A stretch of DNA of 61,611 nucleotides from Desulfobulbaceae bacterium (lineage in GTDB: Bacteria > Desulfobacterota > Desulfobulbia > Desulfobulbales > VMSU01), in contig VMSU01000225.1 of assembly GCA_013792005.1 (NCBI GenBank), forward strand, positions 1-61,611, given 5' to 3'. The translations under genes and the position numbers were made by a program. This document shows positions 19,140-60,294 of the stretch, piece by piece; position 1 is the stretch's first letter; each line of letters opens with the position of its first letter. The notes under the pieces were generated by a model that was not told the DNA's origin, ran no database searches, and was given only the letters and a program-made list of their open reading frames with translations.

Positions 19140-19673
19140 TCAACAAATGGCCTGGAGAATAGCATCAACCTTAGGCCTGTCAGCTGGCCCGGTGCCGATA
19201 TGGTGAAGCCGCACAAAGCCTTTCGGATCAATCAACACATCACCGCCCCGTTGCCGGATATCGTTCGACGGTCTTTTAGGCAGTTGCCCGCGTAAAATTT
19301 CTTTTAAATAGGCCAACCAGGTACTTGGCCCCCAAATATCCCAAAAGCTTGCGTCAAGCATGCCGTAGGCCCGGTAAATATCCCGATTCGTGTCAACAAT
19401 CAGCGGCCAATCGAGGCGAGTTTCCTCCATATATCGCCGAGCCAGAGAACTGGCCTCAAAAGTTACTACGACCACCTTGATATTTTTTGTCGAAAGCTCA
19501 TTTTTTCGATCCCGCAACTGCGAGAGATGCCCCCGGCAGGGCAGTCAACCAAGATGGCGGTGAAAGACCATAAGTAGCCAGAAACCTGTGTAATCTGAAA
19601 GCTGGTGCAGTTGGCCTGTAGCATCTTGAAGTTCAAACGGAACAGCGGGTTGGTTAATTAGATTTATTTTCAT
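19140..19673 (-). CDS. Probable selenoprotein: Prx-like (AhpC/TSA, SelL-related) with U-L-P-C redox motif
   Basis: Read through one in-frame UGA, this is a 177-residue thioredoxin-fold protein of the AhpC/TSA_2 (PRXL2) type. It starts at ATG 19673 with AGAGG about 7 bases upstream. The UGA is codon 43 (19545-19547), exactly where the family has the first Cys of its CXXC motif (FHRHLG-U-LPCR; Cys46 is the second). The following 134 codons are open and conserved (VTFEASSLARRYMEE, GDVLIDPKGFVRLHH). A 6-bp stem-loop with G at the second loop base begins 19 bases after the UGA, fitting the bacterial SECIS form. The alternative is a nonsense-mutated pseudogene. Selenoproteins of this type are known from Desulfobacterota. 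Confidence 0.75.
19510..19525 (-). promoter_or_regulatory. Candidate SECIS hairpin
   Basis: The minus strand reads UCUCGC, loop AGUU, GCGGGA: six pairs including one U-G. The apical loop starts 26 bases after the UGA and has G as its second base. Bacterial SECIS elements typically have the loop 16-37 bases downstream and a G among the first two loop bases. A competing UGCC/GGCA hairpin lies closer to the UGA. Confidence 0.55.
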
Positions 19674-20385: not shown

Positions 20386-20895
20386 TTATGCTCCGGTTCT
20401 GCCCCAGGGCTTAAAAACTGAGATGACTACGAGCACAAAAACTAGCAGTGCTTGAGTCGCTGCCATTGCCATATGGATTTGCATGGCTGCGGCATAACCG
20501 GGATCGATTGCTACATACCGGTCCATCGTCAAGGAATACTTTACCATGCGGTCAAACCAGGGGATAAACCAGAAAAAACCGACAAGGAGAAAGACGATAT
20601 TGGCGAACAATTTTCCGAGAATCCAATAGTGTTTCATATAGCCCCAGTTGCTCAGATGACAGTAAAAAAGTCCGCTCAAGAGACAGCCTATGGCAGAAGG
20701 CATGAGAATGTAATTGTCAACGTACAAAAGAGCTACGTTGCGGGCATACAGTTCAAGCCCGGACTCCGGTGTATACAGGCAATGGATAGCAAATAAGCTG
20801 GATGCCCCACCACCCCAGATACAGGCGAGATAGAGATGGAATACTCTCAGCCATTTTTGGGCATTTGTTGATAGTTTTGCTTTTTTCCTTTTCAC
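20386..20895 (-). CDS. DUF2269-like four-helix membrane protein
   Basis: A 169-residue protein with four predicted membrane spans, starting QKWLRVFHLYLACIWGGGASS and ending VISVFKPWG, a layout similar to DUF2269-type integral membrane proteins. It starts 7 bases after the histidine kinase gene and is probably cotranscribed. No catalytic motif is visible. Conserved His and Trp residues could bind haem, but this is speculative. Confidence 0.6.
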   Translation of the reverse strand: MKRKKAKLSTNAQKWLRVFHLYLACIWGGGASSLFAIHCLYTPESGLELYARNVALLYVDNYILMPSAIGCLLSGLFYCHLSNWGYMKHYWILGKLFANIVFLLVGFFWFIPWFDRMVKYSLTMDRYVAIDPGYAAAMQIHMAMAATQALLVFVLVVISVFKPWGRTGA

Positions 20896-20902
20896 TTACT
20901 TC

Positions 20903-21925
20903 TTACCCATACGTCAATGGGATAGTAATCCGAAAGGTAACCCCTTTTTCACTGTTTTCGGTCACATCAATTGAACCATTATGGGCTTCAATGACTTTTT
21001 TAACGATTGAAAGGCCCAAGCCAGTACCTTCCTTTTTCGTCGTCACGAAAGGAGTGAATATATCGCTTTGCTGTTTTGTTGGTATTCCTTCACCCATGTC
21101 AGCAATCTCTATGCTGATACCATCGCCTTGGCGTTTACTACGGATGATCACCTCACTTCCGTTAGGACTGGCCTCCAGTGCGTTATTTAGAAGATTTTGC
21201 AATGCCTGCTGCAGCCGGTGTTGATCATATTTGATGACCGGCAGGTCCTGCTGCAGTTTAGTCATTATTGTAACTGCATGTCGTGATGCCTTTTCCCCGG
21301 AAACCATCACGACTTCTTCGATGAGAGAATTAATCATGCCTTGTTGACGCTGTAAGTGTAACGGCTTAGCAAAGGCCAGCATGTCTCCGATCAACATTTC
21401 AAGCCGTTGAACCTGTCCAAAGGCAATGTCCAGTTTCTTGGCAAGTTTATCATCGGCCACTTTACACCGGACCTGCTGCACAAAACCCCCAATAGCCAGC
21501 AACGGTGTCTTCATGTCATGGGCGATGCAGGAGACAGCTCTTCCCATGGCAGCAAGACTTTCCGCTTCCAGTAGTCTTTGCTGTTGTCTTGTTTGCCGAT
21601 CCCTAAGAAGGCCAAAGACTAGGCCGAATATATTGAAAAGGACAATTTCAACGAGATTTCCAAAGTTATGCCCGGTAATTACTTCCGGTAGAGAGAGGAC
21701 AAAGGGCAGGTACAGAAAAGTGACGAAAAGGGATGCGCCTATACCTCCGTAAATACCGAACCAAAACCCAGCAAGGATTATCGGCAAAAAGTAGAGTTCC
21801 CGGAAAAAAATGTGATTTAAAATTTTCAGATGATCAGTCTGATAATGAAGAGTAGTGATACCAATCACCAACAGAGTGATTACCGAAATCTTTTTGATGT
21901 TTTGTTTTTTCATTAACGAGATCAT
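20903..21925 (-). CDS. Membrane sensor histidine kinase
   Basis: A 340-residue kinase. Four hydrophobic segments (about residues 13-110, DUF4118-like) form a sensor with little periplasmic exposure. The H box AHDMKTPLL has His136; the N box NLLNNALEAS, G1 DMGEGIP, F PFVTTKKEGTGLGLSIVKK and the C-terminal FRITIPL are all present. ATG at 21925 or 21913 could be the start. No response regulator gene is adjacent, so its partner must be elsewhere. It lies downstream of a MerR-type operator. Confidence 0.9.
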   Translation of the reverse strand: MISLMKKQNIKKISVITLLVIGITTLHYQTDHLKILNHIFFRELYFLPIILAGFWFGIYGGIGASLFVTFLYLPFVLSLPEVITGHNFGNLVEIVLFNIFGLVFGLLRDRQTRQQQRLLEAESLAAMGRAVSCIAHDMKTPLLAIGGFVQQVRCKVADDKLAKKLDIAFGQVQRLEMLIGDMLAFAKPLHLQRQQGMINSLIEEVVMVSGEKASRHAVTIMTKLQQDLPVIKYDQHRLQQALQNLLNNALEASPNGSEVIIRSKRQGDGISIEIADMGEGIPTKQQSDIFTPFVTTKKEGTGLGLSIVKKVIEAHNGSIDVTENSEKGVTFRITIPLTYG

Positions 21926-21985
21926 TGGTTGACCATATTAACTGCCTCTTTTTGTTCGTGTCACACGCTCTCTCTTATTGTGTCC

Positions 21986-22621
21986 TCATTTTTTCCAACT
22001 CGGAAGAAAGGACGGCACTTTTTTGGCGTAATCGTCATACACGCTGCCAAATTCCTGCCGGACCAGTTTTTCTTCCTGCTTTGCAAGACGAACGTAGACA
22101 ATCACCAATACTGGGAACATTGCCAGGGTCAGAAGAGTTGGCCACATAACAAGAAAACCAACCATGACCAGAATAAATCCGTCATATTGCGGATGACGAA
22201 CTAAGCTATATGGCCCGGTGATGGCAAGTTCTCCTGCTTGTTGTGCTGCGTGTAGCACTATCCAGGCCCGGTAGGTAAGATAAAATCCCGCGAAGATGAG
22301 AACATTGCTCAACAGATGAATGGGGTTGGTGTGTGGGTCTCCCTTGAAGCCGAATATGGTATACCAAAGGTGCCCGCTACCATGGGCTAGAATGTCGGAT
22401 TGCGGGAAATTGGCCTGCAACCAGCCGGACAGGAAATAGATGGTTAACGGAAAACCGTACATCTCGGCAAAGAGGGCGACGATAAAGGCGGAAAAAGCTC
22501 CCAGCGAACGCCAGTCGAGTTTTGTTTTCGGTTTTATGAAACTGTAGGCAAAGAGAATGAAGATGGCTGAATTTATTATGACCAAGGGCCATAACCCGTA
22601 TGCAGGGACTGTCTCGTTCAT
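21986..22621 (-). CDS. Isoprenylcysteine/phospholipid methyltransferase-family membrane protein
   Basis: A 211-residue polytopic protein with the ICMT/PEMT C-terminal signature: GPYSLVRHPQYDGFILVMVGFLVMWPT, followed by a basic QEEKLVRQEFGSVYDDYAKKVPSFLP tail. Relatives are frequent in copper-resistance islands, where the substrate is not established. It follows the DUF2933 gene by 17 bases in a likely MerR-controlled operon. Confidence 0.88.
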   Translation of the reverse strand: MNETVPAYGLWPLVIINSAIFILFAYSFIKPKTKLDWRSLGAFSAFIVALFAEMYGFPLTIYFLSGWLQANFPQSDILAHGSGHLWYTIFGFKGDPHTNPIHLLSNVLIFAGFYLTYRAWIVLHAAQQAGELAITGPYSLVRHPQYDGFILVMVGFLVMWPTLLTLAMFPVLVIVYVRLAKQEEKLVRQEFGSVYDDYAKKVPSFLPSWKK

Positions 22622-22638
22622 AATTTTATCCTCCTTTT

Positions 22639-22875
22639 TCAGTGATTGTCATGATTATGAGTTTCATTATCTTTTTGGTGATCACCATGGCCACGATGCA
22701 TGAAAAGATGCATCAAAGGGCAAAGAAGTAAAATCAAGTACGGTAAGGCGCCCAGTAGGTGAGCCTGATGTTCCGTCCAGAGGAAGTATCCTCCAGCCGC
22801 AATAAATGCCAGAAAAGCGAGCCGAGGACCTGAAAGAGCTTTTAGAAAATCCGCCCAAGAATTGTTGCTCGTCAT
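22639..22875 (-). CDS. DUF2933-like small membrane protein
   Basis: 78 residues with two hydrophobic segments and a His-rich tail (HLFMHRGHGDHQKDNETHNH). ATG 22875 is chosen because GGGAGGT sits just upstream; a longer in-frame version would begin inside the MerR-type operator region. DUF2933 proteins accompany copper and mercury resistance genes. The His-rich end suggests metal binding. Confidence 0.8.
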   Translation of the reverse strand: MTSNNSWADFLKALSGPRLAFLAFIAAGGYFLWTEHQAHLLGALPYLILLLCPLMHLFMHRGHGDHQKDNETHNHDNH

Positions 22876-22942
22876 GATGTTACCTCCCGCTGAAAAGTGA
22901 GTTAGATGGTATAGCTGTACTGTTTCCTCAAATATACGATAA

Positions 22943-22964
22943 ACATTGGACAATACTGCAAGGT
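22943..22964 (-). promoter_or_regulatory. MerR-family operator/promoter 1
   Basis: A 22-bp imperfect dyad with minus-strand half-sites ACCTTGCAG and GTCCAATGT around a 4-bp centre. It sits between TTCACC (-35) and TATCGT (-10) with the long spacer of 20 bp typical of MerR-type promoters. The site at 43776-43797 has the same right half and a similar left half. Confidence 0.7.
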
Positions 22965-28079: not shown

Positions 28080-31000
28080 CTAGACGCTTGAAGTATCCGC
28101 GTAGTGCTCCGCTTCATCGATCTCTCCTTGGGATGTGGGTTCATGGCTCTTGTTCAAGCCGATCTGCCTCCAGATGAAATAGATAACCGGGTAGACTAAG
28201 AGCTCCATGACCCCCGAGGTCACAACTCCGCCGACCATGGGGGCGGCGATACGTTTCATGACATCCGCCCCGGCGCCATGGCTCCACATGATTGGCAACA
28301 GACCGGCAATGATGACGGAGATGGTCATCATCTTGGGCCGGATGCGTTTAACTGCCCCGTGATGAATGGCTTGCACTAAGTCGCCACGGGTATTCATCCG
28401 TTGGTTTTTCTTCCACTGTTCAAAGGCCAGATCCAGATACAGGAGCATGACGACACCGGTCTCGGCATCAAGACCGGCTAGGGCGATAAGGCCTACAATC
28501 ACGGCTACGGAGATGTTATAATCCAACAGATAGATCAACCAGAAGGCCCCGACCAGGGAGAAGGGGACTGCCAGCAAGACGATGAAGGTCTTCACCAGGG
28601 ATTTGGTGTTCATGTAGATAATCACGAAGATAACCAGCAGGGTCAGTGGGATGACCACCATAAGCTTGGCTTTAGCTGCTTCCATGTACTCGAATTGCCC
28701 GCTCCAGACGATGTTGTAGCCCGTGGGCAATTGAATCTTTTCTTTGATGATCTTCTGGGCGTTCTTCACGTAAGTGCCTACGTCGATTCCTTTGATGTCG
28801 ACGTAGATCCAGGCGGTGCGCCGGGCATTCTCGCTCTTGATGCCGGGCGGGCCTTTGCGAATTTTGATCTCGGCTACTTGGGTGATGGGGATATGAGCCC
28901 CGGTCGGAGTCGGGATGAGTACCCGGCGTAAGGACTCCAGGTCGTTACGGAAATCTCGTAAATAGCGGACGTTAATCGGGTAGCGCTCCAATCCCTCGAC
29001 AGTTTGGGCTACGTTCATGCCGCCAATGGCTGTCTGGATAACGTCTTGGACATCGCCCACATTGAGCCCATAACGTGCAGCCTCTTCCCGGTTTATGACG
29101 TAATCGAGGTAATTGCCACCGACCACCCGTTCGGAATAAGCGCTCAAGGTTCCTGGGATGGTGCGAATCACTGCCTCAATCTCTTCGCCGATCTGGCTCA
29201 AGATGGTCAGGTCGTTCCCCATCACCTTGATGCCAACAGGGGTCTTAATGCCGGTGGAGAGCATGTCGATGCGGGTCTTGATCGGCATGGTCCAGGCATT
29301 GGTCAAACCGGGAAACTGGATAGCAGAGTTAAGTTCATCGATAAGCTGGTCAACGGAAATATACTTTTCTTCGGGCAAGATGCGGCGCAGGGGCTTTTTG
29401 GCCCAATCACTCCAGCCGGGCCAGCCGGAATAAAAGCGATGTGCCGGAACCTTACGCCACTCTTCCTCCGGCTTGAGCATGATGGTCGTTTCAAGCATTG
29501 ACAGAGGGGCAGGATCCGTTGCGGTTTCAGCTCGGCCAACCTTGCCAAAGACATGATGAACTTCGGGGAACTGCGAAATGATCCGATCGGTCTGCTGCAG
29601 AAGAGTCTTTGCCTGGGAAATAGAGACCCCCGGCAAGGTTGTCGGCATATAGAGTAGATCCCCTTCATACAGCGGGGGCATGAATTCTGAGCCCATCTTC
29701 GATATTGGGTAGAAAATGGAGGTTATCAGCAACACGGAGATAACCAGAACGACCACACGCCACTTGAGGACGACATCGACAATCGGGTGGTAGATGCGGA
29801 TCATAAGACGGTTGAGTGGATTGGCATCTTCTCTCGGAATCTTGCCACGGATGAACCAGCCCATGAGGACCGGAACGATGGTGATAGAGAGGAGTGCCGC
29901 CGCACCCATGGCATAGGTCTTGGTAAAGGCCAGCGGCTTGAAAAGCCTACCCGACTGTTCACCTAAGGTGAAAACGGGAAAAAAGGAGACGGTGATCACC
30001 AGCAAACTGTAGAACAGGGCTGGCCCGACTTCTTGGGCCGCCCCCATGATGATGTCCCAGTGCGGCTTTTTGCCACTGTAGCGTTCTAGGTGCTTATGGG
30101 CATTCTCAATCATGATGATGGCGGCATCAATCATCGCGCCGATGGCGATGGCAATACCGCCCAGGCTCATGATGTTGGCGTTGACTCCCTGCCAGCCCAT
30201 GATGATGAACGCGATAAGGATTGCCACCGGCAGGGTAAAGATCGCCACCAAAGCGCTGGGTATATGAAAGAGGAAAAGGGCGGTCACGATAGCGACGACA
30301 ATGCTCTCTTCGATAAGTTTTTCTTTCAAGTTGTCCACCGCCCGTTCGATAAGCCCGGAACGGTCATAAACAGCTTTGATGGTCACTCCTTCAGGGAGTC
30401 CTGCTTGGAGTTCCTCCAACTTTTTCTTGACGTTTTCGATGGTTTTTAAGGCGTTCTCCCCAAAGCGCATGACGACGATCCCGCCGACCGCTTCCCCTTG
30501 CCCGTCGAGATCCGTAAGGCCCCGGCGTAGTTCTGGGCCGATTCGCACCTCCGCAATATCACGAATCAGGATTGGCGTCCCCTTGGCGTCGGTGCCGAGG
30601 ACGACCTTTTCCAAATCCTCCACCGATTTAATGTAGCCCATACCCCGAACCATGAACTCTGTCTCGGCCTGCTCGACCAGACGACCACCGACATCGTTAT
30701 TGCTGCGCTGGATAGCCTGTTTTATTTTGAAAATGGGGATGTTGTAGGCCAATAGCTTATTGGGGTCGATAGCGACTTGGTACTGCTTGACGTAGCCGCC
30801 GATGCTGGCTACTTCGGCGACACCGTTAACGGAGGTCAAGGCGTAACGAAGATACCAGTCCTGCAAGGAGCGCAACTCTTGTAAGGTGTGATTTTTGCTC
30901 TCCAATACATATTCATAGACCCAGCCAACCCCGGTGGCATCAGGCCCCAGAGATGGCGTCACTCCGGCCGGCAGCCTTTTCGAGGCGTAGTTGAGGTATT

Positions 31001-31334
31001 CGAGGACTCGGGAGCGGGCCCAGTACATATCGGTGCCGTCTTCGAAGATGATATAGACGAAACTGTAGCCAAAAAAAGAGTAGCCGCGGACTACTTTGGC
31101 AAAGGGCACAGCCAGCATCTGGCTGGTCAGTGGGTAGGTGACTTGATCTTCAACCACCTGGGGGGCCTGTCCCGGAAACTCCGTGAAGATGATGACCTGA
31201 ACATCGGAGAGGTCGGGAATGGCATCAAGCGGGGTATTCTTTAGTGCGTAGATGCCGCCGATGATGACGAACACTGTGATGAGGACCACCATGAATTTGT
31301 TGCGGATGGAAGCGGCAATGATTTTTTCAAGCAT
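28080..31334 (-). CDS. cusA: CusA-type Cu/Ag RND efflux pump
   Basis: A 1084-residue HME-RND pump, full length, with 12 membrane helices. CusA hallmarks are present: TPLDAIPDLSDVQVII, YIIFEDGTDMYWARSRVLEY and the helix-4 motif AIGAMIDAAIIMIEN of monovalent-metal pumps. Met residues in the periplasmic domain (MPPLYEGDLLYMPTTLPG) fit Cu(I)/Ag(I) handling. It follows cusB after a 141-base gap that holds no gene. It exports metal from the periplasm via CusB and CusC. Confidence 0.96.
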   Translation of the reverse strand: MLEKIIAASIRNKFMVVLITVFVIIGGIYALKNTPLDAIPDLSDVQVIIFTEFPGQAPQVVEDQVTYPLTSQMLAVPFAKVVRGYSFFGYSFVYIIFEDGTDMYWARSRVLEYLNYASKRLPAGVTPSLGPDATGVGWVYEYVLESKNHTLQELRSLQDWYLRYALTSVNGVAEVASIGGYVKQYQVAIDPNKLLAYNIPIFKIKQAIQRSNNDVGGRLVEQAETEFMVRGMGYIKSVEDLEKVVLGTDAKGTPILIRDIAEVRIGPELRRGLTDLDGQGEAVGGIVVMRFGENALKTIENVKKKLEELQAGLPEGVTIKAVYDRSGLIERAVDNLKEKLIEESIVVAIVTALFLFHIPSALVAIFTLPVAILIAFIIMGWQGVNANIMSLGGIAIAIGAMIDAAIIMIENAHKHLERYSGKKPHWDIIMGAAQEVGPALFYSLLVITVSFFPVFTLGEQSGRLFKPLAFTKTYAMGAAALLSITIVPVLMGWFIRGKIPREDANPLNRLMIRIYHPIVDVVLKWRVVVLVISVLLITSIFYPISKMGSEFMPPLYEGDLLYMPTTLPGVSISQAKTLLQQTDRIISQFPEVHHVFGKVGRAETATDPAPLSMLETTIMLKPEEEWRKVPAHRFYSGWPGWSDWAKKPLRRILPEEKYISVDQLIDELNSAIQFPGLTNAWTMPIKTRIDMLSTGIKTPVGIKVMGNDLTILSQIGEEIEAVIRTIPGTLSAYSERVVGGNYLDYVINREEAARYGLNVGDVQDVIQTAIGGMNVAQTVEGLERYPINVRYLRDFRNDLESLRRVLIPTPTGAHIPITQVAEIKIRKGPPGIKSENARRTAWIYVDIKGIDVGTYVKNAQKIIKEKIQLPTGYNIVWSGQFEYMEAAKAKLMVVIPLTLLVIFVIIYMNTKSLVKTFIVLLAVPFSLVGAFWLIYLLDYNISVAVIVGLIALAGLDAETGVVMLLYLDLAFEQWKKNQRMNTRGDLVQAIHHGAVKRIRPKMMTISVIIAGLLPIMWSHGAGADVMKRIAAPMVGGVVTSGVMELLVYPVIYFIWRQIGLNKSHEPTSQGEIDEAEHYADTSSV

Positions 31335-31475
31335 GAGAATTCCCTAGTCAGGGGTTGAAGATTCGAGGGCCGAATTCCATTGATTGTGCCGAGCACAGCG
31401 AAACCATATCGATGAATTGAAGAGGGATTTTTTCTGCGCCTCCGCGCCGCTTTTGCGAAGAGTTACAGCGCGAGT

Positions 31476-32993
31476 TTACTTGAACAGGTCGTCCAGATCT
31501 TCGTTCTTTTTCCCTGTCGCGCCTTCTTGAGGTGGATCTTTCATCGGTTCCGGTTTTGCCGATTCGGATGGTTTCTTTGGTTCCAACATCTTCTGGATGG
31601 CTTCGCGCAGTTGGCTTTCGGAATCGAGCATGAATTGGGCCGAGGTCACGATCTCCTCCCCGGCGAATAGCCCTTGTGTGACCTGGACCATCCCCTGGTC
31701 CCCCTCAACTCCGATCTTGATCAGGCGTGGCTCGAACTTGCCGCCGCCGAGGGTAACAAATACGGTGCGCTTCTCACCCGAGTAGAGGACGGCGTTGCGC
31801 GGGATGACCAGGGCATCCTCGATCGGCTGGGTGTTCAGCCGAACATTGACGTATAAATCTGGTTTTAAATGGTAGCCGGGGTTGTCAAATTCAAGCCGGA
31901 CCTTTACCGTCCTTGTTTTGGGCTCGACGTAGGGGTAGATGTAGCTCACCTTGCCAGTCAACGTCTTCATGTCGCCATAGGGAAACTCGACCACGGCCTC
32001 CTGCCCCTCTTTCACCCAGGGGAGCTCGTATTCGTAGATATCGGCATTGATCCAGATCTTAGAAATATCGGAGAGTTTAAAAAGCTCCATGCCAGCGTTG
32101 ATAAACATCCCTTCGTTCACCATCTTCATGGTGACGATGCCGCTGTATGAAGAATAGAGGGTCATGGTCTTGCGGACCTTCCCTGTTTTCGTCAATTCGG
32201 AGATCTGCTGCTCAGAGATATCCCAATATTTCAGACGGCTGCGGGAGGCTTCAAGGAGCCGCTGGGCTCCTTCGGCAATCTGGGGGAAATCACTTTTGGC
32301 AAGCGCCTGGTTGTTGTTCAACGCCAGCAAGTATTCTTCCTGAGCGCTCACCAGATCCGGGCTGTAGATGGAGAGCAGAGGCGTGCCTTTTTTGACGAAC
32401 TGGCCGGTTTCATTGACAGTGAGGCGCTCGATCCAGCCGCTGACTTTGCTGTTGATCGAATACTGCCGACTCTCGTCGTAGGCTACCAATCCCACCGTTC
32501 GCAGATCTCTGTGCAGGGCCTTTTGTTCCACCTTGGCCGTGCTGATGCCCATGTTCTGAATCGTCACCGGGTCAATAGAGATGATCGAACCGGTGGCGGC
32601 CTGATCCTCGTAGACCGGGACCAAGTCCATCCCCATCGGCGATTTTCCGGGCTCGTTGCGAATATAGGTGGGGTCCATGGGCGCAGCCCAATACTTGATC
32701 TTACGCTCCCCTTGGGGCTTTGCTGATTCTGTCTTCGCACCGCCGGTGGTCCCGGGCTTGACTGGTACCAACTTCATGCCGCAGATCGGACAATCCCCCG
32801 GCTCGTCTTTAATGATGAACGGGTGCATGCCGCAGGTCCACTGTTGCTTCTCTTCCGCATGGGCAGACTGGGGGCCAGTGTAGGGAAAGATATGGGTGTG
32901 GCTTACGCAGTGCCAGGTGTAAGAGGTTCCGCCAGACAGGACGAGGGCCAGGACAAGCGTGCCACTCAAAAGCAACTGTTTAGTTCGGGTCAT
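31476..32993 (-). CDS. cusB: CusB-type adaptor with two heavy-metal-binding domains
   Basis: A 505-residue membrane-fusion protein. After a signal peptide come two HMBD units: WTCGMHPFIIKDEPGDCPIC and, diverged, WAAPMDPTYIRNEPGKSPMG, the latter with Cys replaced. HlyD-like barrel, lipoyl and helical hairpin regions follow (YSINSKVSGWIERLTVNETG; YSSYSGIVTMKMVNEGM). A Lys/Pro/Glu-rich tail ends the protein. Its first 85 residues are paralogous to those of the next gene upstream. It links CusA to the outer-membrane channel. Confidence 0.95.
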   Translation of the reverse strand: MTRTKQLLLSGTLVLALVLSGGTSYTWHCVSHTHIFPYTGPQSAHAEEKQQWTCGMHPFIIKDEPGDCPICGMKLVPVKPGTTGGAKTESAKPQGERKIKYWAAPMDPTYIRNEPGKSPMGMDLVPVYEDQAATGSIISIDPVTIQNMGISTAKVEQKALHRDLRTVGLVAYDESRQYSINSKVSGWIERLTVNETGQFVKKGTPLLSIYSPDLVSAQEEYLLALNNNQALAKSDFPQIAEGAQRLLEASRSRLKYWDISEQQISELTKTGKVRKTMTLYSSYSGIVTMKMVNEGMFINAGMELFKLSDISKIWINADIYEYELPWVKEGQEAVVEFPYGDMKTLTGKVSYIYPYVEPKTRTVKVRLEFDNPGYHLKPDLYVNVRLNTQPIEDALVIPRNAVLYSGEKRTVFVTLGGGKFEPRLIKIGVEGDQGMVQVTQGLFAGEEIVTSAQFMLDSESQLREAIQKMLEPKKPSESAKPEPMKDPPQEGATGKKNEDLDDLFK

Positions 32994-32995
32994 AG

Positions 32996-33448
32996 TTATT
33001 TCCTGTCTTCATGTGGAGAATCTGAAGTTTTGTTGGGTGGCTTGGCCCCTTGCGACTCATCAACCCCGGTGGCATCTGGTTTAACTGGTGTCAGCTTCAT
33101 CCCGCAGATCGGGCAATTGCCCGGCTCGTTTTGGATGACGGCCGGGTGCATAGGACAAGTGTTAAGATGTTTGGCCGCTTGCGACTCATCAACGCCGGTG
33201 CTATCGGGCTTAACTGGTATCAGCTTCATACCACAGATCGGACAATCTCCTGGCTCGTCCTGGATGATAGCCGGGTGCATAGGACAGGTGTATTTTAGCT
33301 TTTCAACTTCGGCGAAAACGACCTGTGTCCCAAAAGAAAGAGAGAGAGATTTATCACTCGAACAGTGCCAGGTATCATAGGTTCTGCCGGACAGGACGAG
33401 GGCCAAGACAAGCGCGCCACTCAACAGGATTTTTTTAGTCAGAGTCAT
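32996..33448 (-). CDS. Small secreted protein with tandem heavy-metal-binding domains
   Basis: A 150-residue exported protein with two HMBD units, YTCPMHPAIIQDEPGDCPIC and NTCPMHPAVIQNEPGNCPIC, each with a C-P-M-H and a C-P-I-C-G-M motif, joined by a VKPDxTGVDESQ linker repeated twice. The signal region (LLSGxLVLALVLSGxT, then TWHC) closely matches CusB, so it arose by duplication of the 5' end of cusB. It lies between cusC (4-base overlap) and cusB. It probably acts as a periplasmic Cu/Ag shuttle in the way CusF does elsewhere; CusF itself is absent. Confidence 0.8.
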   Translation of the reverse strand: MTLTKKILLSGALVLALVLSGRTYDTWHCSSDKSLSLSFGTQVVFAEVEKLKYTCPMHPAIIQDEPGDCPICGMKLIPVKPDSTGVDESQAAKHLNTCPMHPAVIQNEPGNCPICGMKLTPVKPDATGVDESQGAKPPNKTSDSPHEDRK

Positions 33449-34806
33449 TGCTGTCTCCTTTCTTCATGAGAAGAGGTAAAAGTATTGTTGGGCTGAGATT
33501 CCATCCCGGTTTCTGCAGCCGGGGTTCGGCTTAGATCCATGCCGGATTCAGCTTCAAGTCCGGCGACATTCCGTTGGTAGTCAGCCAGCACCTGGTAGTA
33601 ATCAATTTGATAACGATAGAGGGAAAGCAGTGAGTCGAGCAGGTTTAAAAAATCGACCTTATTTACCTGATAGGCAGCAAGACTGGCCTGGAAAGTTTGG
33701 TCGGCCTGAGGAAGAATTCCTGTCTTATACAGGGAAACCTGATTGCGATTTTTTTCCATCTGCGCGTAGGTGTCGTGGAGGTTGAATAGCACCTTGTTGC
33801 GGAAATCGTTATACTGATCGGAGGCCATATCGATCCCTGAGTCGGCCTCAGCTACTGCTTCGTGCCGTTTTTTACGGTTGAAAGGCAGATTGATGCCAAC
33901 CCCGGCACTGACGAAATCGGCACCTTGGACTGGGTCGCCCGGAACAGTAGCGCGGAACCGGTAACCGGCTGAAACGGTAATGTTGGGGTAGTACTCGAGT
34001 TGGGCGAAGTATTTCTGAGCCTTGTAGCGTTCGATTAGCGATCGATAGGAGGCGTAAAGAGGTCGATGCTTCTCTGAGCCTTGCTGCAACTCGTTAAGCT
34101 CGACCTCGACTGGAGTCATTTCCTCTATTGCCGGCGGAGTCACCTGCTTTGCAGTCGGTTGGTTGCGGAGGGTGTTGAGATCGGCAAGGATAGAGACACG
34201 CATTTGCTTTAAGGAGAAAAGTTTGTCCATCAGCTTGGAGCGCTCAACCTGGGCCTTGAGCACATCCTGCTGCAAGCCCTTGCCGACTTGGTATTTGGTT
34301 TCTGTCAGGTGGATAACATCATCCAGGATGGCGATGTTCTGGTTAATGATTCGAATCCCCTGGTCCTGAAAAAAAAGGCGATAGTAGCTATCCTTGACCT
34401 TTTTGACCAGTTGTAGTTTCCCATCCTCATAAACGCCACGGAACCAGAGGGCCTGTTGCTCGGCCATCTCACCCTTAGCCGCCAGTTTGCCCGGGAAGGG
34501 AAAGGTTTGGGCCAGGTTCAGTTCGTTCCCGGTCATCGGGGTCTCGTCAAAGGCCAAGCTGTCAATCGGGTAGTTGGAGAACGTCAAGGAGAGTCGTGGA
34601 TCCTCCAGAGAACGGGCGGGGATGATCTGGCGTTCGGACATCTGCCAACGCTTCTTGGCAGCATGGAGTTCGGGATTGTTGACCAAGGATTCGGCAACTA
34701 ATTCTGTTAGTGCTGGAGGAATTGGTTCGGCTGTGGCCAGAAGGATTGGCAGGACCAGGCTCACTCCCAAGGGCCCAAAGGCCAACCAACACACAAATCG
34801 TTTCAT
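33445..34806 (-). CDS. cusC: CusC-like outer-membrane efflux channel (TolC family)
   Basis: A 453-residue TolC-family protein with a signal peptide (ATA/EP near residue 27) and two OEP repeats of long helices and strands (YPNITVSAGYRFRATVPG; VDFLNLLDSLLSLYRYQIDYYQVLADYQRNVAGLE). There is no lipobox Cys. It is the first gene of a cusC-HMBD-cusB-cusA operon. Confidence 0.93.
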   Translation of the reverse strand: MKRFVCWLAFGPLGVSLVLPILLATAEPIPPALTELVAESLVNNPELHAAKKRWQMSERQIIPARSLEDPRLSLTFSNYPIDSLAFDETPMTGNELNLAQTFPFPGKLAAKGEMAEQQALWFRGVYEDGKLQLVKKVKDSYYRLFFQDQGIRIINQNIAILDDVIHLTETKYQVGKGLQQDVLKAQVERSKLMDKLFSLKQMRVSILADLNTLRNQPTAKQVTPPAIEEMTPVEVELNELQQGSEKHRPLYASYRSLIERYKAQKYFAQLEYYPNITVSAGYRFRATVPGDPVQGADFVSAGVGINLPFNRKKRHEAVAEADSGIDMASDQYNDFRNKVLFNLHDTYAQMEKNRNQVSLYKTGILPQADQTFQASLAAYQVNKVDFLNLLDSLLSLYRYQIDYYQVLADYQRNVAGLEAESGMDLSRTPAAETGMESQPNNTFTSSHEERRQQ

Positions 34807-34944
34807 GCCCTGCTCTCCATGGTATAACTGTTTCGCAGTGTCACAGCTGCTGTTCAGTCCTCCTCCAGGGAGGAGAGGACTGAACCAAATCGAACGAAAA
34901 TTGAACTGAATCTCGCTAGGCGTATTGATCTGTCATTGGTCTAC

Positions 34945-35427
34945 TCATTCCATCCCTTCCATCATCTGGTTGACCGCACCCATGCGTCCCTGCATTTTCG
35001 TAATCATCATTGGGTCCATCTGCCCCTTTGCCATCTGCTCAGACATTTCATTCATGTTGGCGGACATTTCCCCCATCATCTTTGACATGTTCTGCATCTT
35101 GGCATGGTCCATGCCCCCCAGTTTCTCCATGATACGACACATCTTCCCGATTGTATCATTCATCTGGTTCATCATACCTGACATGTCTTTCATCATGCTC
35201 TGGTCCATCATCTGGCCACCCATCATCTGATTAGACTTTTGGCTGCCCGACATGCCTTTATGTTGAGGTTGTGACTGGCTTCCCATTTTACCGCCCATAG
35301 TGTCACTCATGCTGCCTTTCATGTCACCTCCCATGCTACCACCGCCTGAGCTGCTGCCCATCTGAGCCAGGGCCGTTCCCGCTGTAAGCATAATCATTGT
35401 CATCACTGCCATACTTGCCTTTTTCAT
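34945..35427 (-). CDS. Met-rich periplasmic protein
   Basis: A 160-residue exported protein; about one residue in five is Met, with repeated MMxxM, MGG and MxxMxxxM patterns, and a single Cys. ATG 35427 is used because GGAGG lies 7 bases upstream; an earlier in-frame ATG overlaps that Shine-Dalgarno. Met clusters bind Cu(I)/Ag(I), so a metal sponge role is likely. It precedes cusC in the same direction. A shorter protein of similar style is encoded at 39.9 kb. Confidence 0.75.
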   Translation of the reverse strand: MKKASMAVMTMIMLTAGTALAQMGSSSGGGSMGGDMKGSMSDTMGGKMGSQSQPQHKGMSGSQKSNQMMGGQMMDQSMMKDMSGMMNQMNDTIGKMCRIMEKLGGMDHAKMQNMSKMMGEMSANMNEMSEQMAKGQMDPMMITKMQGRMGAVNQMMEGME

Positions 35428-35562
35428 CTCTTTTGCCTCCATTTGTGTTGGTGTTGAAATGATTCTCCTATCGTAACTATTGTTACTTTCTCGCTAGGAG
35501 TTGGATAGTTACTTTCTATTAAAATAGCATTCATCGTAAGTTGAATTGCCGGATCGGATATT

Positions 35563-36861
35563 TTATTCCTGGTCTCTCGACGCATCTGTTGCTTTCATCT
35601 TTTGCTCGTACATCATGGAGTCCGCTTGTGCTAGAAGCTCATCAATTGAACAAGGGACTTCAGGGTTATACATAGAAAAACCAATGCTCATCAATAATTC
35701 ATAGGGTCTCTCTGCTTGAAAATTAGCAATGCGCAACTGCTCGTGCAGTCTATTCGTAATAGTCTGACCTTTTTCTTCACTTGACGACCCCTGAGTCAAG
35801 GCCACAAACTCGTCTCCTCCCAAACGACTAACAATATCTGATTCTCTTAAAACGCTTTTCAATATTTGTGCTGTTTCTATTAGCGCTTTATCTCCCATTT
35901 CATGACCAAAATTGTCATTAATAGACTTCATGTTATCGAGATCCATATAGAGCATGAACAAAACATTATTGTGCCGATTAGCTATTTGAATTTGTTTTTC
36001 GGCAAGTTTCATAAACCCCCTACGATTGTAGAGTCCGGTAAGTTCATCAGTAATCGTAATGCGTTTAAGCGCCTCTTCAAGTTTCGTTTTTTCACTTATT
36101 TCTTTGGACAACTCTGCTGTTCGATCTTGGACAAGTTGTTCAAGATGATTTTGATACTTTTTGAGTTCGCCTTCCGTCTCCAATCGTTTCGCTGAAGTTT
36201 TTATTAGCTTGATAGTCATATAGAGCGTGAGTGATGACACCAGAACAATGATCATCCCTGAAATCACCATCATTCTGCGCACGAGTTTGTCGATCTGCTC
36301 GTTCACATCCCTTAGATAGATCCCGGTGCCAATGACCCAATTCCAGGGGGGAAATGCCTTGACAAATGACAACTTAGGCTCAATTCGAGACGGGTCATTT
36401 TTCCACTGCCAGTCGTACGTGACAAAACCCTCTCCGTCCTTTTTTACGAGGCGAATAAATTCGGCGAATAGACTTTTTACCTTAGTGTCGAGATTCCCGA
36501 ACAACTCCTTGTTTTCAAGATCTTCCCGGTATGGATGCATGATCATATGAGAATTCAGATCATTAATCCAAAAATAATCAAGGTTATCTTCCCCATAGCG
36601 CATACCTCGAAGATGTTCTATGACAATTTCTTGCGCTTTTTCTCGGGTGATCTTGCCACTCAGTTCTTCTTTTTGAACAACCTCTAGCATGTTCCAAGCG
36701 GTATTAACCATTTGGCGCAGCATGTATTTTTGTTGATTAATCAGAACGTTCCTGAAGGTAGGAAGCAGATACCCGAACACCGTAGAGACAAAAAGAAATA
36801 TCGCCAAAATAGCCGGCAAAATTATTTCGAAGAGATCTTTTTTCGATATGAAAACAGACAT
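35563..36861 (-). CDS. Cache-domain diguanylate cyclase
   Basis: A 432-residue signalling protein. A first membrane helix (about residues 10-32) is followed by a periplasmic single Cache domain (YFWINDLNSHMIMHPYREDLE ... WVIGTGIYL), a second membrane helix, a coiled segment, and a C-terminal GGDEF domain with the active motif RLGGDEF and DELTGLYNRRGF. ATG 36861 is chosen; the longer TTG-started form adds 26 residues without an evident ribosome site. It should make cyclic-di-GMP in response to an extracellular ligand. Confidence 0.92.
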   Translation of the reverse strand: MSVFISKKDLFEIILPAILAIFLFVSTVFGYLLPTFRNVLINQQKYMLRQMVNTAWNMLEVVQKEELSGKITREKAQEIVIEHLRGMRYGEDNLDYFWINDLNSHMIMHPYREDLENKELFGNLDTKVKSLFAEFIRLVKKDGEGFVTYDWQWKNDPSRIEPKLSFVKAFPPWNWVIGTGIYLRDVNEQIDKLVRRMMVISGMIIVLVSSLTLYMTIKLIKTSAKRLETEGELKKYQNHLEQLVQDRTAELSKEISEKTKLEEALKRITITDELTGLYNRRGFMKLAEKQIQIANRHNNVLFMLYMDLDNMKSINDNFGHEMGDKALIETAQILKSVLRESDIVSRLGGDEFVALTQGSSSEEKGQTITNRLHEQLRIANFQAERPYELLMSIGFSMYNPEVPCSIDELLAQADSMMYEQKMKATDASRDQE

Positions 36862-37158
36862 CCCTTTTCGCCCCACTTGAACTGTTCGTCGAATACAGCT
36901 GTCATTATTCAGGTCGCTTGTCGTCGTCTGGCCTAACAAGTGAACATCGTAACAGTGAAAACCTCATGCCTTTTAACCTTCTCTGCGCTTAGCATAGCGA
37001 TAACATGCTGACAAATCAAACTTTTTTTTAGTAAAATGTACTACATAGTGACTACCGAATGGCGAAGAGAAATGATGACCGTTTACCCGAAAATTAACAT
37101 AGTATGCGGCAGCTGCAAATGCTGCTGAGAAACGGGAAGGGCAGAAGTATCCACCACT

Positions 37159-37863
37159 TCAATACCAGGCGCTGACCCCTAGAACAAACTGGACATCGTC
37201 CACGGACGCTCCTTCTTCTCGGGCATAGTCGGCGGTTTTACCGTACAGCCTGGTCCAGTTGACGCCCAGGTAGGGGGCAAATTCGCGGCGGATCTCGTAG
37301 CGCAGCCGCAGACCAGCTTCGAGAGAAGACAGTCCGGATCCGATGCCGACGGCTTCGTCATCCTTGCCGTAAAGGTTCAATTCTATTTCAGGAACCAAAA
37401 TCAAGCGCTGGGTAAACATGATTTCATATTCAGCCTGGAGACGGGCCGAGGTGCGACCATTGTCGCCGACAAATATCGCCGCATCGACATCAAAGAAGTA
37501 CGGTGCCAGGCCCTTGACTCCCACGGCCAGCCAGTCTCGGTCAGGAGTAGGCCGGAGGTCACGTCGCCAGCCCATCTGCAGGTCCCAGAAGGGCGCGATG
37601 GCACGGCTGTACAAGGCCTGAGCCTCCGCCTCTTCGACACGGCCGTCTTTGTACTCACCATCGGTTTTGATCCAAAGCTTATCGAGATCACGACCGATCC
37701 AGCCTTCGGCATCCCAGACCAGCGGGTCTTGGCCGGAGACCGTGCGTACCTCAAGTTGATTCACCATCATCATAGAAAGTAGGGGGTCATCGTTCATCCC
37801 GCCGGCCAAGGAGATGGCAGGAACAAAAAGTATCGATACAAACAGCATCTTAGGAATAATCAT
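37159..37863 (-). CDS. copB: CopB/PcoB-type outer-membrane copper resistance protein
   Basis: A 234-residue outer-membrane beta-barrel protein with a signal peptide (to about residue 20) and the CopB pattern (WDAEGWIGRDLDKLWIKTDGEY ... AEAQALYSRAIAPFWDLQMGWRRD ... LRYEIRREFAPYLGVNW). The Met/His-rich N-terminal insert found in many CopB proteins is missing apart from LLSMMMV. It follows copA (multicopper oxidase) by 12 bases. Confidence 0.94.
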   Translation of the reverse strand: MIIPKMLFVSILFVPAISLAGGMNDDPLLSMMMVNQLEVRTVSGQDPLVWDAEGWIGRDLDKLWIKTDGEYKDGRVEEAEAQALYSRAIAPFWDLQMGWRRDLRPTPDRDWLAVGVKGLAPYFFDVDAAIFVGDNGRTSARLQAEYEIMFTQRLILVPEIELNLYGKDDEAVGIGSGLSSLEAGLRLRYEIRREFAPYLGVNWTRLYGKTADYAREEGASVDDVQFVLGVSAWY

Positions 37864-37875
37864 GGTCGGCCTCTC

Positions 37876-39675
37876 TTAACTGACGACAACTTTACGGAAC
37901 ATGCCCAGCATGTGATAGAGCAGATGGCAGTGATAGGCCCATCCACCTCTGGCATCGGCGGTCACCAAATAACTGATCTTGCTGCCCGGCTGCACAATCA
38001 CCGTGTGCTTGCGGGGGATGTGCCGACCATCGCCAGTTTCAAGCTCGCTCCACATACCGTGCAGATGCATGGGGTGGTTCATCATGGTGTCATTGACCAA
38101 AGTGATGCGCAGCCGTTCGCCGTAGGTAAGACGAAGCGGCTCGGCCTCACTGTATTTGATCCCGTTGATCGACCACATGTAGCGGGCCATATTGCCGGTC
38201 AGATGCAATTGAATCTCTCGTGACGGCTCGCGTGGGTCCAGGGTGGGAGAAATATTTCGCAGGTCGGCGTAGGTGAGTGACCGGCGACCATTATCCCGCA
38301 ACCCGACGCCGGGATCATTCAGCCGAGACTGTGCACTTGCTACCCGGGCATCCACATGGGGGCCGAACTCGGTGGCCGCATGCACCACTTTCGCATTGCT
38401 TCCTTCTCCCGCTGAGCCAAGCATCGTCATCCCGGCGCCCATCCCTGCCATGTCATGCATACTGTGATCCATGCCGGGCATCATGCCGCCATGCGACATC
38501 TCCCCCATGTTCATAGCCCCCATATCCATACCCATGTCCTGGTGGCCAAGAATTGGGTACTGATCAAGCGGCGGTGGTTCCATGGACAGTGATGGATCAG
38601 GGGTCAACGTGCCACGGGCATAACCGGTTCGATCAAGGGCTTGGGCGAAAACGCAGTAGGCCCGGTCATCCTTGGGGGCCACGATTACATCATAGGTCTC
38701 GGCTACGCCAATGCGGAACTCATCGACAGTCACCGGCTCGATATTCTGGCCGTCGGCGGCGACCACAGTCATAGCAAGACCTGGGATACGCACATCGAAA
38801 AAGGTCATGGCCGAACCGTTGATAATACGAAGGCGAACTTTTTCACCACGCTTGAACAGGCCGGTCCAGCCGGAGGCAGGCGTTTGGCCGTTCATCAGGA
38901 AAGTATAGGTATAACCAGTCACATCTGAGAGATCCCGGTCGCTCATCCGCATTCGGTTCCACATGGCCCGCTCGGACCAGGTACGGGACACGCCTTTCTC
39001 TTGGATGTCGCGGCTCACATCACCCATAGTTCGTTCGGCAAAATTGTAATAGCCGCTCATCTTCTTGAGGGTGGCATATATATCAGCCGGGTCTTCATCG
39101 GACCAGTCAGACAGCATGATCACGTAGTCGCGGTCGTAGCTGAACGGCTCTGGTTCCAGTGGTTCGATGATCAGCGGTCCGTAAAGCCCAGTCTGCTCCT
39201 GAAATCCGGAATGGCTGTGGTACCAGTAGGTGCCGCTCTGTTTAACATCAAACTGGTAGCGGAAGGTCTCACCAGGGGCAATTCCCTTGAAGCTGATATC
39301 GGGTACTCCGTCCATGGGCGCCGGGAGGATGATCCCGTGCCAGTGGATGGAACTTGTCTCCGTCAACCGGTTGGTGACATCCAACGTTACCTGATCCCCT
39401 TGCCGCCAGCGCAGCACGGGCCCTGGCACTGAACCGTTCACAGCCGTGGCCATACCGTTTATGCCGGTGAAGTTGACGGGCGTGGAGGCCAAGGTTAGAT
39501 CAAATTGTTTGCCACGCAGGATCGGCTGTGCCGCATAGGAACCGGCCGCAGCCAACAACCGATCGGGGATCCCCCCCAGGCCCAGCAGCGCCCCACCCAT
39601 CATCATGCCTTTGACAAAGCGGCGGCGCGGCAGAATGAGCGTGCCGGGATCAAAGAACGGGCTTTTTTTTATCAT
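37876..39675 (-). CDS. copA: CopA/PcoA-type multicopper oxidase
   Basis: A 599-residue periplasmic oxidase with a Tat signal (RRRFVKGMMMGG at about residues 17-28). Type 1/2/3 copper ligands are present: HWHGIILP, WYHSHSGFQEQTG, HPMHLHG and HCHLLYHMLGMF. A Met/His-rich insert (MDMGAMNMGEMSHGG and onward, about residues 380-415) fits Cu(I) loading. ATG 39675 has GGAGG 8 bases upstream. It oxidises Cu(I) and needs O2, which is notable if the host is anaerobic. It is upstream of copB. Confidence 0.96.
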   Translation of the reverse strand: MIKKSPFFDPGTLILPRRRFVKGMMMGGALLGLGGIPDRLLAAAGSYAAQPILRGKQFDLTLASTPVNFTGINGMATAVNGSVPGPVLRWRQGDQVTLDVTNRLTETSSIHWHGIILPAPMDGVPDISFKGIAPGETFRYQFDVKQSGTYWYHSHSGFQEQTGLYGPLIIEPLEPEPFSYDRDYVIMLSDWSDEDPADIYATLKKMSGYYNFAERTMGDVSRDIQEKGVSRTWSERAMWNRMRMSDRDLSDVTGYTYTFLMNGQTPASGWTGLFKRGEKVRLRIINGSAMTFFDVRIPGLAMTVVAADGQNIEPVTVDEFRIGVAETYDVIVAPKDDRAYCVFAQALDRTGYARGTLTPDPSLSMEPPPLDQYPILGHQDMGMDMGAMNMGEMSHGGMMPGMDHSMHDMAGMGAGMTMLGSAGEGSNAKVVHAATEFGPHVDARVASAQSRLNDPGVGLRDNGRRSLTYADLRNISPTLDPREPSREIQLHLTGNMARYMWSINGIKYSEAEPLRLTYGERLRITLVNDTMMNHPMHLHGMWSELETGDGRHIPRKHTVIVQPGSKISYLVTADARGGWAYHCHLLYHMLGMFRKVVVS

Positions 39676-39747
39676 GGGCACGCCTCCAGACGTGGTTAAA
39701 AAATGACGCCGAATCAAAAGGGGTTCTCAAAACCTAGATGCCTTTAT

Positions 39748-39786
39748 CCCGTTCCCCTATTCTTAGAAAGATCTGTGGGGAGCGGG
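39748..39786. other. GC-rich hairpin in the copA leader
   Basis: A 10-bp stem (39748-39757 with 39777-39786, one G-T) in the intergenic stretch 39718-39854, between the Met/His-rich gene and copA. No T run follows on either strand. It may be an attenuator, a processing site or mRNA stabiliser. Confidence 0.4.
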
Positions 39787-39854
39787 GTAAAGAACGCATT
39801 TAGCACCTCAATACCTGACCGAAAGATGGTAATTTTCTCCGGCCAAGTGTGAAC

Positions 39855-40268
39855 TCATTTCATCATCATTTCATGTTGTGTCATCATGCCGTTCATCATC
39901 TCCTGCATCATCATCATTTTATTCTCCATCATTTTCATATGGTCCTCCATGGATTTGCCGGATTCTCCCCCCATCATCTTGCCCTTGTCGCTCATCATGC
40001 AGCATTGCCCCTTCATCATGTTCATGCCATCCCGCATCATTTTCATGTGCTGGTGCATAAGTTCTTTTCGTGCTGCAGGGTCTTTTTCCGTTTCGATTTT
40101 ATTGCGCATTTCCTGCATCTGCTGCATGGAGGTGTCAACTTTTTCCGTATTCATTTGGGCCATCTCAGGAGCAGCCTGATTTTTGGGATGATGCGCCTCC
40201 TCGGCCAAAACTGGTAGGCTGATGGCAAGCATTGACAATAAAGAAGCGGTTAGAAACATTTTCTTCAT
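39855..40268 (-). CDS. Met/His-rich periplasmic protein
   Basis: A 137-residue secreted protein: a signal peptide (cleavage after VLA, about residue 22), then an alpha-helical body with many MM, HxxM and MxxM groups and one CC pair (GQCCMMSDKGKMMGG). ATG 40268 has GAGGAG about 8 bases upstream. It is probably a Cu/Ag-binding buffer acting with CopA and CopB, encoded next. It differs from the other Met-rich protein by its CC pair and His content. Confidence 0.75.
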   Translation of the reverse strand: MKKMFLTASLLSMLAISLPVLAEEAHHPKNQAAPEMAQMNTEKVDTSMQQMQEMRNKIETEKDPAARKELMHQHMKMMRDGMNMMKGQCCMMSDKGKMMGGESGKSMEDHMKMMENKMMMMQEMMNGMMTQHEMMMK

Positions 40269-40299
40269 CTTTGTTCTCCTCATACAAGGTTAGTGTTAA

Positions 40300-40318
40300 A
40301 AGGGGCATGATGCCCCTT
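40300..40318 (-). terminator. Terminator of the YHS-DUF5676-ATPase operon
   Basis: An 8-bp perfect GC-rich stem, AAGGGGCA with TGCCCCTT around a 3-base loop, followed on the minus strand by a short T run (TTTTAAC). It lies 20 bases after the ATPase stop. Confidence 0.7.
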
Positions 40319-40338
40319 AGCCAATGTTGTTGTTTTTA

Positions 40339-43005
40339 TTAAATCTTCGTCCGCCGTAATCGTAAGGCATTACCGATCACCGAGACCGAGGAGAGACTCA
40401 TGGCTGCCGCTGCAATCATGGGTGACAGCAGAATGCCCAGGAAGGGATAGAGTACCCCAGCTGCTACCGGCACACCTAAGGCGTTATAAATAAAAGCAAA
40501 GAAGAGGTTCTGCTTGATGTTGGCCATGGTGGCGCGCGAGAGTTTCCTAGCACGGATGATCCCGGTCAGATCGCCTTTGACCAAGGTGACTCCGGCCGAT
40601 TCCATGGCCACGTCGGTGCCGGTACCCATGGCAATACCGACGTGAGCCTGGGCCAGGGCGGGTGCGTCGTTGATGCCGTCACCGGCCATGGCAACCATGC
40701 GGCCTTCATCCTGGAATTTTTTCACCACCGCCGCCTTCTCATCGGGCAGCACCTCCGCCACGACTTGGTCAATCCCTAGTTTGGCGGCCACGGCTTCGGC
40801 TGTCGCCCGATTATCGCCGGTCAGCATCACCACAAGCATGCCCTCTTCGTGCAATTGGCGGATAGCGGCTGGGGTGCTCTCCTTGATCGGATCGGAGACG
40901 GCCAGCAGACCAGCGAGTTTGCCATCGGCGGCCACGAACATGACCGTCTGCCCTTCCTTGCGCATCTCTTCAGCACGATTGGCGAGAGCTGCGGTATCAA
41001 CACTGAAATCTTCCATCAGTTTGAGATTGCCCAGTAATACCTTTGCCCCATCGACAGTGCCGGAGACCCCCTTGCCGGTATGCGAATCAAAATCAGCGGC
41101 GTCAACAGGCGTACTCTTTCGCTCCACTGCCCCGGCCACGATGGCTGCGGCCAACGGATGCTCGCTAGCCTTTTCCAGGCTAGCCGAAAGAATTAACAGG
41201 CGCTCCTCTGTCATGCCGCTCGCAGTGACCACGCCGGTCAATTTCGGCTTGCCGAGGGTCAAGGTGCCGGTCTTGTCTACCACCAGGGTGTCGATTTTAC
41301 GCATGGTTTCGATTGCCTCAGCATTCTTGAATAACACTCCCATGGTGGCGCCTTTACCGGTAGAAACCATGATCGACATCGGGGTAGCAAGGCCTAAGGC
41401 GCACGGACAGGCGATAATCAGCACCGATACCGCCGCGATCAAGGCATGCGCGAGCCGCGGGTCAGGACCAACGGCGTACCATACACCAAAGGCAGCAAGC
41501 GCAATCGCGATCACCACCGGCACAAAGTATCCGGCTACGATGTCGGTAAGCTTCTGAATCGGTGCCCGTGAGCGCTGGGCCAGGGCCACCATCTTGACGA
41601 TTTGAGCGAGCAGGGTGTCACTCCCTATCTTTTCGGCCCGCATGGTAAGGCTACCAGTGGCATTGACTGTCGCGCCGATCACCTTGTCATCTTTTTGCTT
41701 TTTGACTGGAATCGGTTCGCCGGAGATCATCGATTCATCCACCGAGCTTGTACCGTCGACTACCATGCCGTCGACCGGCACCTTCTCGCCCGGTCGGATA
41801 CGGAGCACATCGCCAACCTGGACGTGTTCCAAGGGGATATCGATCTCGGTACCATCTTCATTGATTTTACGGGCCGTTTTCGGTGCTAACCCCAACAACG
41901 CCTTGATGGCGGCACCGGTTTGGCTACGAGCCCGCAGCTCCATGACTTGTCCCAGTAATATCAAGGTGACGATTACCGCCGCCGCCTCGAAATAGACTCC
42001 CACCGCGCCATCAGAACCACGCATGGTGGCAGGGAAAATTTCTGGGAAAAGAACAGCAATCAGACTGTAAATATAGGCTACGGATACACCCAGGCCGATC
42101 AAAGTAAACATGTTGAGGCTTCTGTTGATTATCGATTGCACCGCCCGTACATAAAAGACCCAGCCAGCCCAGAGAACCACTGGCGTCGACAGAATCAGTT
42201 CCAGCCAGCCAAGGGTGCGAGGAGAAGCCAGATTTTCGATGAGATGCCCGCCCGGCAGCATCTCCCGCATGGCGATAATCACCAGCGGCACGGTAAGCAC
42301 CGCGCCGAAAATAAAGCGCCTGCGCATAAAGTCGTACTCGGGATTTTCATCGTCCTGATCGAGGCTGATGGTGCGGGATTCTAGGGCCATGCCACACTTG
42401 GGGCAGGAGCCGGGGGTCTCCTGCACGATCTCAGGATGCATAGGGCAGGTGTATTCGGTGCGGGTCTCATTTGCCGCCGGAGTCATGGATTCGAGGGCCA
42501 TACCGCATTTAGGGCAGGCCCCCGGTGAGTCCTGTTCAATTTCCGGATGCATAGGGCAGGTATAGACGCGACCTCTATCATCCAGTGTCTTTTTCGGCTG
42601 GTCATTTTCTGTTTTTTCACCGGTATAGTGTTTGGGATCGTTTTTGAATTTCCCCAGGCACCGTTCGCTGCAAAAATAGTATGTGTTGCCGCCATGATGG
42701 TGGGGGGTAAAAGCGCTCTCGTCTTCGGTATGCATGCCGCAAACCGGGTCGGTAAAAACAGACGCTACTGCAGAATTTTCATGTGAGAAAGGTTCCTCAC
42801 TGGCTACAAACTTTGCGGGGTTTTCCTGAAAAGTCTTAAGGCAATGATCACTGCAGAAGTAATAAGTTGTTCCTTTGTGCTCTTGAGAAATAAATTCGTC
42901 TGGTGCATCAGTTGACATGCCGCATACGGGATCTTTCCGTTCTGTTTTTGTAACCTCAGCATGTGAATGTTCTTCATTGTTATGATGATGTTGGCCTGAA
43001 TTCAT
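40339..43005 (-). CDS. P1B-type Cu ATPase with YHS-YHS-HMBD-HMBD N-terminus
   Basis: An 888-residue heavy-metal ATPase. The first 210 residues carry two YHS domains ([28 protein letters not shown]) and two nearly identical HMBD units ([40 protein letters not shown]); no HMA domain is present. The catalytic core is complete: TGE-like [15 protein letters not shown] in helix 6, [17 protein letters not shown]. The CPC motif fits Cu(I)/Ag(I) export. Symbol left blank, as copA is used here for the oxidase. It is probably regulated by MerR operator 2, which lies upstream of the operon. Confidence 0.95.
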
Positions 43006-43081
43006 ATCCCATCTCCTTTTTGGTTCTGCAAAATTTATGGGGCTGCTGGAAATCGTATTTTAAAAATCAACTTCACATTTT

Positions 43082-43327: not shown

Positions 43328-43390
43328 GATCTACCTCCTTATCCTGTTCGTCTTTTCTTTTTTGTCCCAAACAGTACACAGTGATTGTTA

Positions 43391-43732: not shown

Positions 43733-43775
43733 AACCCACCTCCATGTTTTTTTATTGATCTTAATTGTAAAATAA

Positions 43776-58276: not shown

Positions 58277-58306
58277 AAAAATGGGCATTATCAATTTAGT
58301 ATAGAC

Positions 58307-60292: not shown

Positions 60293-60294
60293 TT

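Follow-up and report, generated by a model that had tools for sequence, protein, structure and literature searches.

The window, the whole 61,611-nucleotide stretch of DNA analyzed, carries on its minus strand a gene for a SelL-related redox protein of 177 amino acids (19140..19673). The gene is an intact AhpC/TSA-type frame of 177 codons running from 19673 to 19143, closed by a TGA stop at 19142–19140 and preceded by AGAGG, a plausible Shine-Dalgarno sequence, upstream of its ATG. Codon 43 is an in-frame TGA (19545..19547, minus strand) at the first position of the redox motif RHLG-U43-LP-C46-R, giving a UxxC motif in which Cys46 (TGC, 19536..19538, minus strand) is the presumed resolving partner. 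A sequence-only reading of this DNA had described a TGA in a CXXC-type motif of an otherwise intact 177-residue AhpC/TSA-type gene, and the frame confirms this at codon 43. As that reading also anticipated, standard annotation shortens the product: ORF calling under table 11 leaves a single standard ORF of 125 aa starting at TTG 19517. This ORF lacks the active site, and no Shine-Dalgarno sequence was seen before its TTG. Inspection of the full-length protein by eye showed no evident signal sequence. Scans for promoters and terminators stayed at chance level, and an AlphaFold model from a two-sequence alignment (pLDDT 37) was unusable.

The protein matches the NCBIfam model NF040769, "SelL-related redox protein", at 196.2 bits against a cut-off of 120, with residues 9–176 aligned to profile positions 2–173 of 173. 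Pfam matches were to AhpC-TSA (67.8 bits) and AhpC-TSA_2 (55.6 bits). The NF040769 match is full-length, with nothing excluding membership, and all 15 aligned homologues match the model as well; the model itself describes a subfamily named by relation, to which no substrate is assigned. The window protein is thus an additional member of a catalogued family and no new kind, and its novelty falls below what the sequence-only reading implied because NCBI already models the family.

The homologue search covered 146 relatives and 297 genomes sampled from the phylum. It yielded 20 homologues in other genomes with the motif RHL[GS]U, 31–78% identical to the window protein, and TGA occupies the residue-43 codon in 20 of 20. 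No Cys version was found within the RHL[GS]U clade in the genomes searched; Cys relatives form a separate group, RYxGCPxC, with 100/100 support. Compared with the closest relatives of the window copy, G083 (78% identical) and G024 (73%), dN/dS is 0.13–0.20 both 5′ and 3′ of the UGA. This indicates purifying selection and therefore that the part downstream of the UGA is translated in the same frame. A contig scan returned only one close relative, the closest named match being an uncultured Desulfobulbaceae MAG, and 72,556 plasmid records held no match above 30% identity to the window protein. In one homologue, L030 (G053:C1:1444821-1445336, a single-contig genome), a second UGA stands at the Cys46 position, 9 nt from the first, producing RHLGULPUR; one hairpin lies downstream of the two UGAs, and the resulting UxxU is the motif described for SelL.

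These comparisons bear directly on the alternative that the TGA is a real stop and that the locus is a pseudogene or a sequencing error, leaving a 125-aa remnant translated from the internal TTG. Standard ORF calling does yield that frame only. However, the TGA is kept in 20 homologues, with purifying selection on both sides of it, and a base-calling error can be ruled out because genome after genome has TGA for Sec43. The TTG lies inside the loop of a covarying hairpin, the fragment would be without an active site, and the Sec machinery of the host is complete. On the sequence evidence this alternative is largely refuted by cross-genome conservation, and we regard it as extremely improbable.

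The hairpin, a putative bacterial SECIS element, is positioned at 19510..19525 on the minus strand and reads UCUCGC-AGUU-GCGGGA. It is the 6-bp stem-loop with a G at the second loop position that had been noticed from the sequence. The stem begins 20 nt and the apical AGUU loop (19519–19516) 26 nt past the UGA. A bacterial SECIS is a hairpin just downstream of the UGA with a small apical loop containing a G (PMC1088965), and the window hairpin agrees with this description. Across the homologues, a 6–7 bp stem is capped by AGUU (GGUU once) and starts 19 or 20 nt past the UGA in most; the stem is 6 bp in the window, 7 bp are possible in many relatives, and in a few the outer pairs are shifted or lost. 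Both-side changes occur in five of the seven pairs. The covariation score of 0.363, compared with 0.108 for shuffled alignments, was equalled by none of 500 shuffles, and each slid register scored lower. Synonymous-codon identity over codons +7 to +11 is 0.78 against a background of 0.44, with CAG used for Gln in 19/19 cases and TTG for Leu in 20/20. All eight Cys relatives that were folded lack the hairpin. Scanning the window against Rfam at gathering thresholds gave no match, which we do not count against the hairpin because short bacterial SECIS elements vary. Two further Sec groups were observed, RHFGUxFA/C and RGFxUPFC/A (L057, L059, L060, L061, L063, L068 and L070-L080). Several members of the related RGFxUPFC group do carry this hairpin, and several RGFxUPFC/A members have the hairpin core GCAGUUGC in common.

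The host genome is a draft of 4.0 Mb in 252 contigs, 97.6% complete. It contains selA (614 bits), selB (385 bits), a tRNA-Sec with a TCA anticodon and two copies of selD, so the search for host Sec genes suggested by the sequence-only reading found all of them; they sit on other contigs than the selenoprotein gene. One selD, on C47, is free of TGA, while the second, L050 (G000:C98:27331-28260), has an in-frame TGA and is itself a likely SelD selenoprotein. A second above-cut-off tRNA-Sec candidate, on C189, proved to be tRNA-Trp. Of the 20 further genomes that carry the gene, 16 have selB above cut-off; the remaining four, all drafts, returned only fragments or other elongation factors. The TGA shared by 20 homologues, the covarying hairpin, the purifying selection and the host sel genes bear out the earlier suggestion of a likely selenoprotein. 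From these sequence data we conclude with near certainty that 19140-19673 (minus strand) encodes a genuine selenoprotein.

The window also carries a plasmid backbone (21..18785), in which Pfam matches identify DUF5338 (TraK-like), a ParA-like ATPase, a Rep3 initiator, ParA/ParB, a TrbB-type ATPase, TrbE, TrbI, TrbL, TrbM, SLT and TraX. The trb set is IncP-like. With replication initiator, partition and mating-pair formation genes all on the contig, the backbone supports the view that the element is conjugative-plasmid-like. The earlier description of the gene as plasmid-borne is supported by Rep3, ParAB and the trb genes, but the contig, 61.6 kb of linear draft assembly, has no end overlap and could not be closed. 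The single relaxase-domain match of the genome lies on another contig, C172 (L101, a 721-aa open frame), and could be the portion of the transfer apparatus that the selenoprotein-bearing plasmid lacks. Plasmid-borne Sec genes have precedent in Sinorhizobium meliloti, whose megaplasmid pSymA carries fdoGHI, encoding a Sec formate dehydrogenase, together with selABCD (PMC8124441). The window contig likewise places a selenoprotein gene on a plasmid, although it lacks the sel genes found on pSymA. Selenoprotein genes on mobile elements are easily missed, being overlooked because gene callers truncate them.

Because the contig belongs to a draft genome, assignment of the plasmid to its host carries a caveat. 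The contig could be mis-binned, with a true plasmid host that does not decode Sec: the draft consists of 252 contigs, the contig is not circularized and the gene is missing from three genomes of the same genus. Against this, the contig GC of 0.479 compares with ~0.50 at sampled loci of the same genome, close homologues are found in genomes of the same order, most of which have selB, and the decoding signal of the gene is independent of the bin. We consider mis-binning unlikely, at the level of a small residual chance.

Upstream of the selenoprotein gene, on the same strand, lie genes for a DUF2269-like membrane protein, a sensor kinase, an ICMT/PEMT-type methyltransferase and a DUF2933 protein (20386..22953, minus strand; Pfam). 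The ICMT gene is 2.3 kb upstream. Further along the minus strand, 28080..46405 contains the copper-resistance genes CusA, CusB, CusC/OEP and CopB, a GGDEF protein, a multicopper oxidase, a Cu P-type ATPase (40339-43005), an HD-domain protein and an NDH-2-like oxidoreductase, all assigned by Pfam. Copper-resistance genes on the same contig had been noted from the sequence, and CusABC, CopB, the multicopper oxidase and the ATPase substantiate this. The further suggestion that the copper trait would work only in Sec-decoding hosts was overstated: Cus, CopB, the multicopper oxidase and the ATPase need no Sec, and only the accessory selenoprotein would depend on SelABCD.

Synteny in the relatives indicates a recurrent association. 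In 8 of the 20, from five families (G077, G089, G027, G078, G054, G097, G043 and G090), the selenoprotein gene lies 80–2369 bp from a Cu P-type ATPase of the window type, often with an ICMT or HD-domain gene close by. In some relatives ICMT/PEMT-type and DUF2933 genes adjoin it within copper clusters, and in G044 an ATPase fragment is near it. Assuming random placement and ignoring shared ancestry, 0.08 linked genomes would be expected where eight were seen (P ~7e-15); counted by family under random placement, five of eight are linked (P ~3e-9). Relatedness among the genomes makes these values optimistic, though five families are represented. On the window contig 20.7 kb separate the ATPase from the selenoprotein gene, and the closest relatives, G083 and G024, have no copper genes beside theirs; a copper role may therefore not apply to the window copy. 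A literature search of partial coverage found no paper tying the SelL-related family to copper resistance or conjugative plasmids.

Two explanations of this neighborhood were weighed. A genuine Sec family protein might serve general peroxide or thiol redox control and lie near copper genes merely as shared accessory cargo. The nearest relatives, whose genes sit amid unrelated neighbors (ArgJ, ABC transporters, NrfD), favor such a general role, as does the lack of an adjoining copper ATPase in 11 of the 20 relatives. Against a general role, members of five families have the gene linked to one and the same ATPase, frequently together with ICMT and HD-domain genes, at a rate far above random placement, and the window itself has the ICMT gene. 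We give this general role a real chance, somewhat short of even. A role in copper stress explains the neighborhood most economically, and, taken as a whole, we think it probable, with moderate confidence, that the gene encodes a Sec protein of the SelL-related family acting as a plasmid accessory to copper resistance, most likely by repairing thiols that copper has oxidized. The sequence gives strong support to Sec decoding and likewise backs family membership, the host machinery, the plasmid-type backbone and the statistical ATPase linkage among relatives. We infer the reaction, electron donor, cell location and copper role of the window selenoprotein.

In UxxC thioredoxin-fold proteins the selenolate attacks disulfides or peroxides and a nearby Cys resolves the intermediate. 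The window protein would most likely be a selenol:disulfide, possibly peroxide, reductase guarding thiols under copper or oxidative stress. In the proposed mechanism, SelB with Sec-tRNASec would bind the hairpin starting 20 nt past UGA43, leading to Sec insertion, and the product would be a thioredoxin-folded, probably cytosolic protein. The selenolate of Sec43 would make the attack and the thiol of Cys46 would resolve it; the cycle would pass through a selenenylsulfide, with disulfides or hydroperoxides reduced by electrons from a thioredoxin-type donor. Carried on a conjugative-plasmid-like element with copper-resistance genes, the selenoprotein would most likely repair copper-oxidized thiols. 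More tentatively, and with the odds leaning against it, the SelL-related selenoprotein could be a dedicated mobile part of copper-resistance clusters in Desulfobulbales-type bacteria, a selenium-dependent thiol-repair or copper-handling enzyme within a plasmid-transferred resistance module whose full effect would require a recipient that decodes Sec. Should the linkage to copper genes have a functional basis, a selenoprotein family that is catalogued without an assigned function would gain a testable role, and a resistance accessory would depend for its activity on the genetic-code machinery of the recipient.

ResA and PrxQ/Bcp-type proteins use Cys; these oxidoreductases and peroxiredoxins are the best, albeit distant, sequence relatives of the window protein among solved structures (2ywn, 1st9). 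The TxxU motif of Sec peroxiredoxin (Prx) is absent, with His three residues before Sec43 and UxxC in place, and the match is to the AhpC-TSA fold only. Lists of deltaproteobacterial selenoproteins have included Prx-like thiol:disulfide oxidoreductases with Sec from 2006 onward (PMC1794560), with PF00578 proteins reported for Desulfotalea, Geobacter and Syntrophus (PMC1794560; PMC13188914) and UxxC or UxxU motifs given in a recent inventory (PMC13188914). Like the window protein, they combine an AhpC/TSA domain with UxxC in related bacteria, a likeness drawn by description to a broad group. SelL, mentioned in PMC2398784 and PMC3316567, is a selenoprotein of the Prx-like type that has a pair of Sec two residues apart. 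By description it resembles the window protein in being Prx-like with two redox residues at that spacing, but SelL proper has UxxU where the window protein has UxxC, and UxxU occurs only in the homologue L030.

The other frames of the window that become open if TGA is taken as Sec were surveyed and the most suggestive checked by Pfam, which revealed no second selenoprotein. One of these frames belongs to a broken MFS transporter; the others resemble extensions beyond natural stop codons. The MFS transporter gene, at 23120-24426 on the minus strand, is apparently broken, its pieces lying in different frames. A second redox/metal cluster occupies 56144-61224 on the plus strand and comprises genes for an HMA P-type ATPase and for DsbB-like, TlpA/ResA-like and Fer4_5 proteins.
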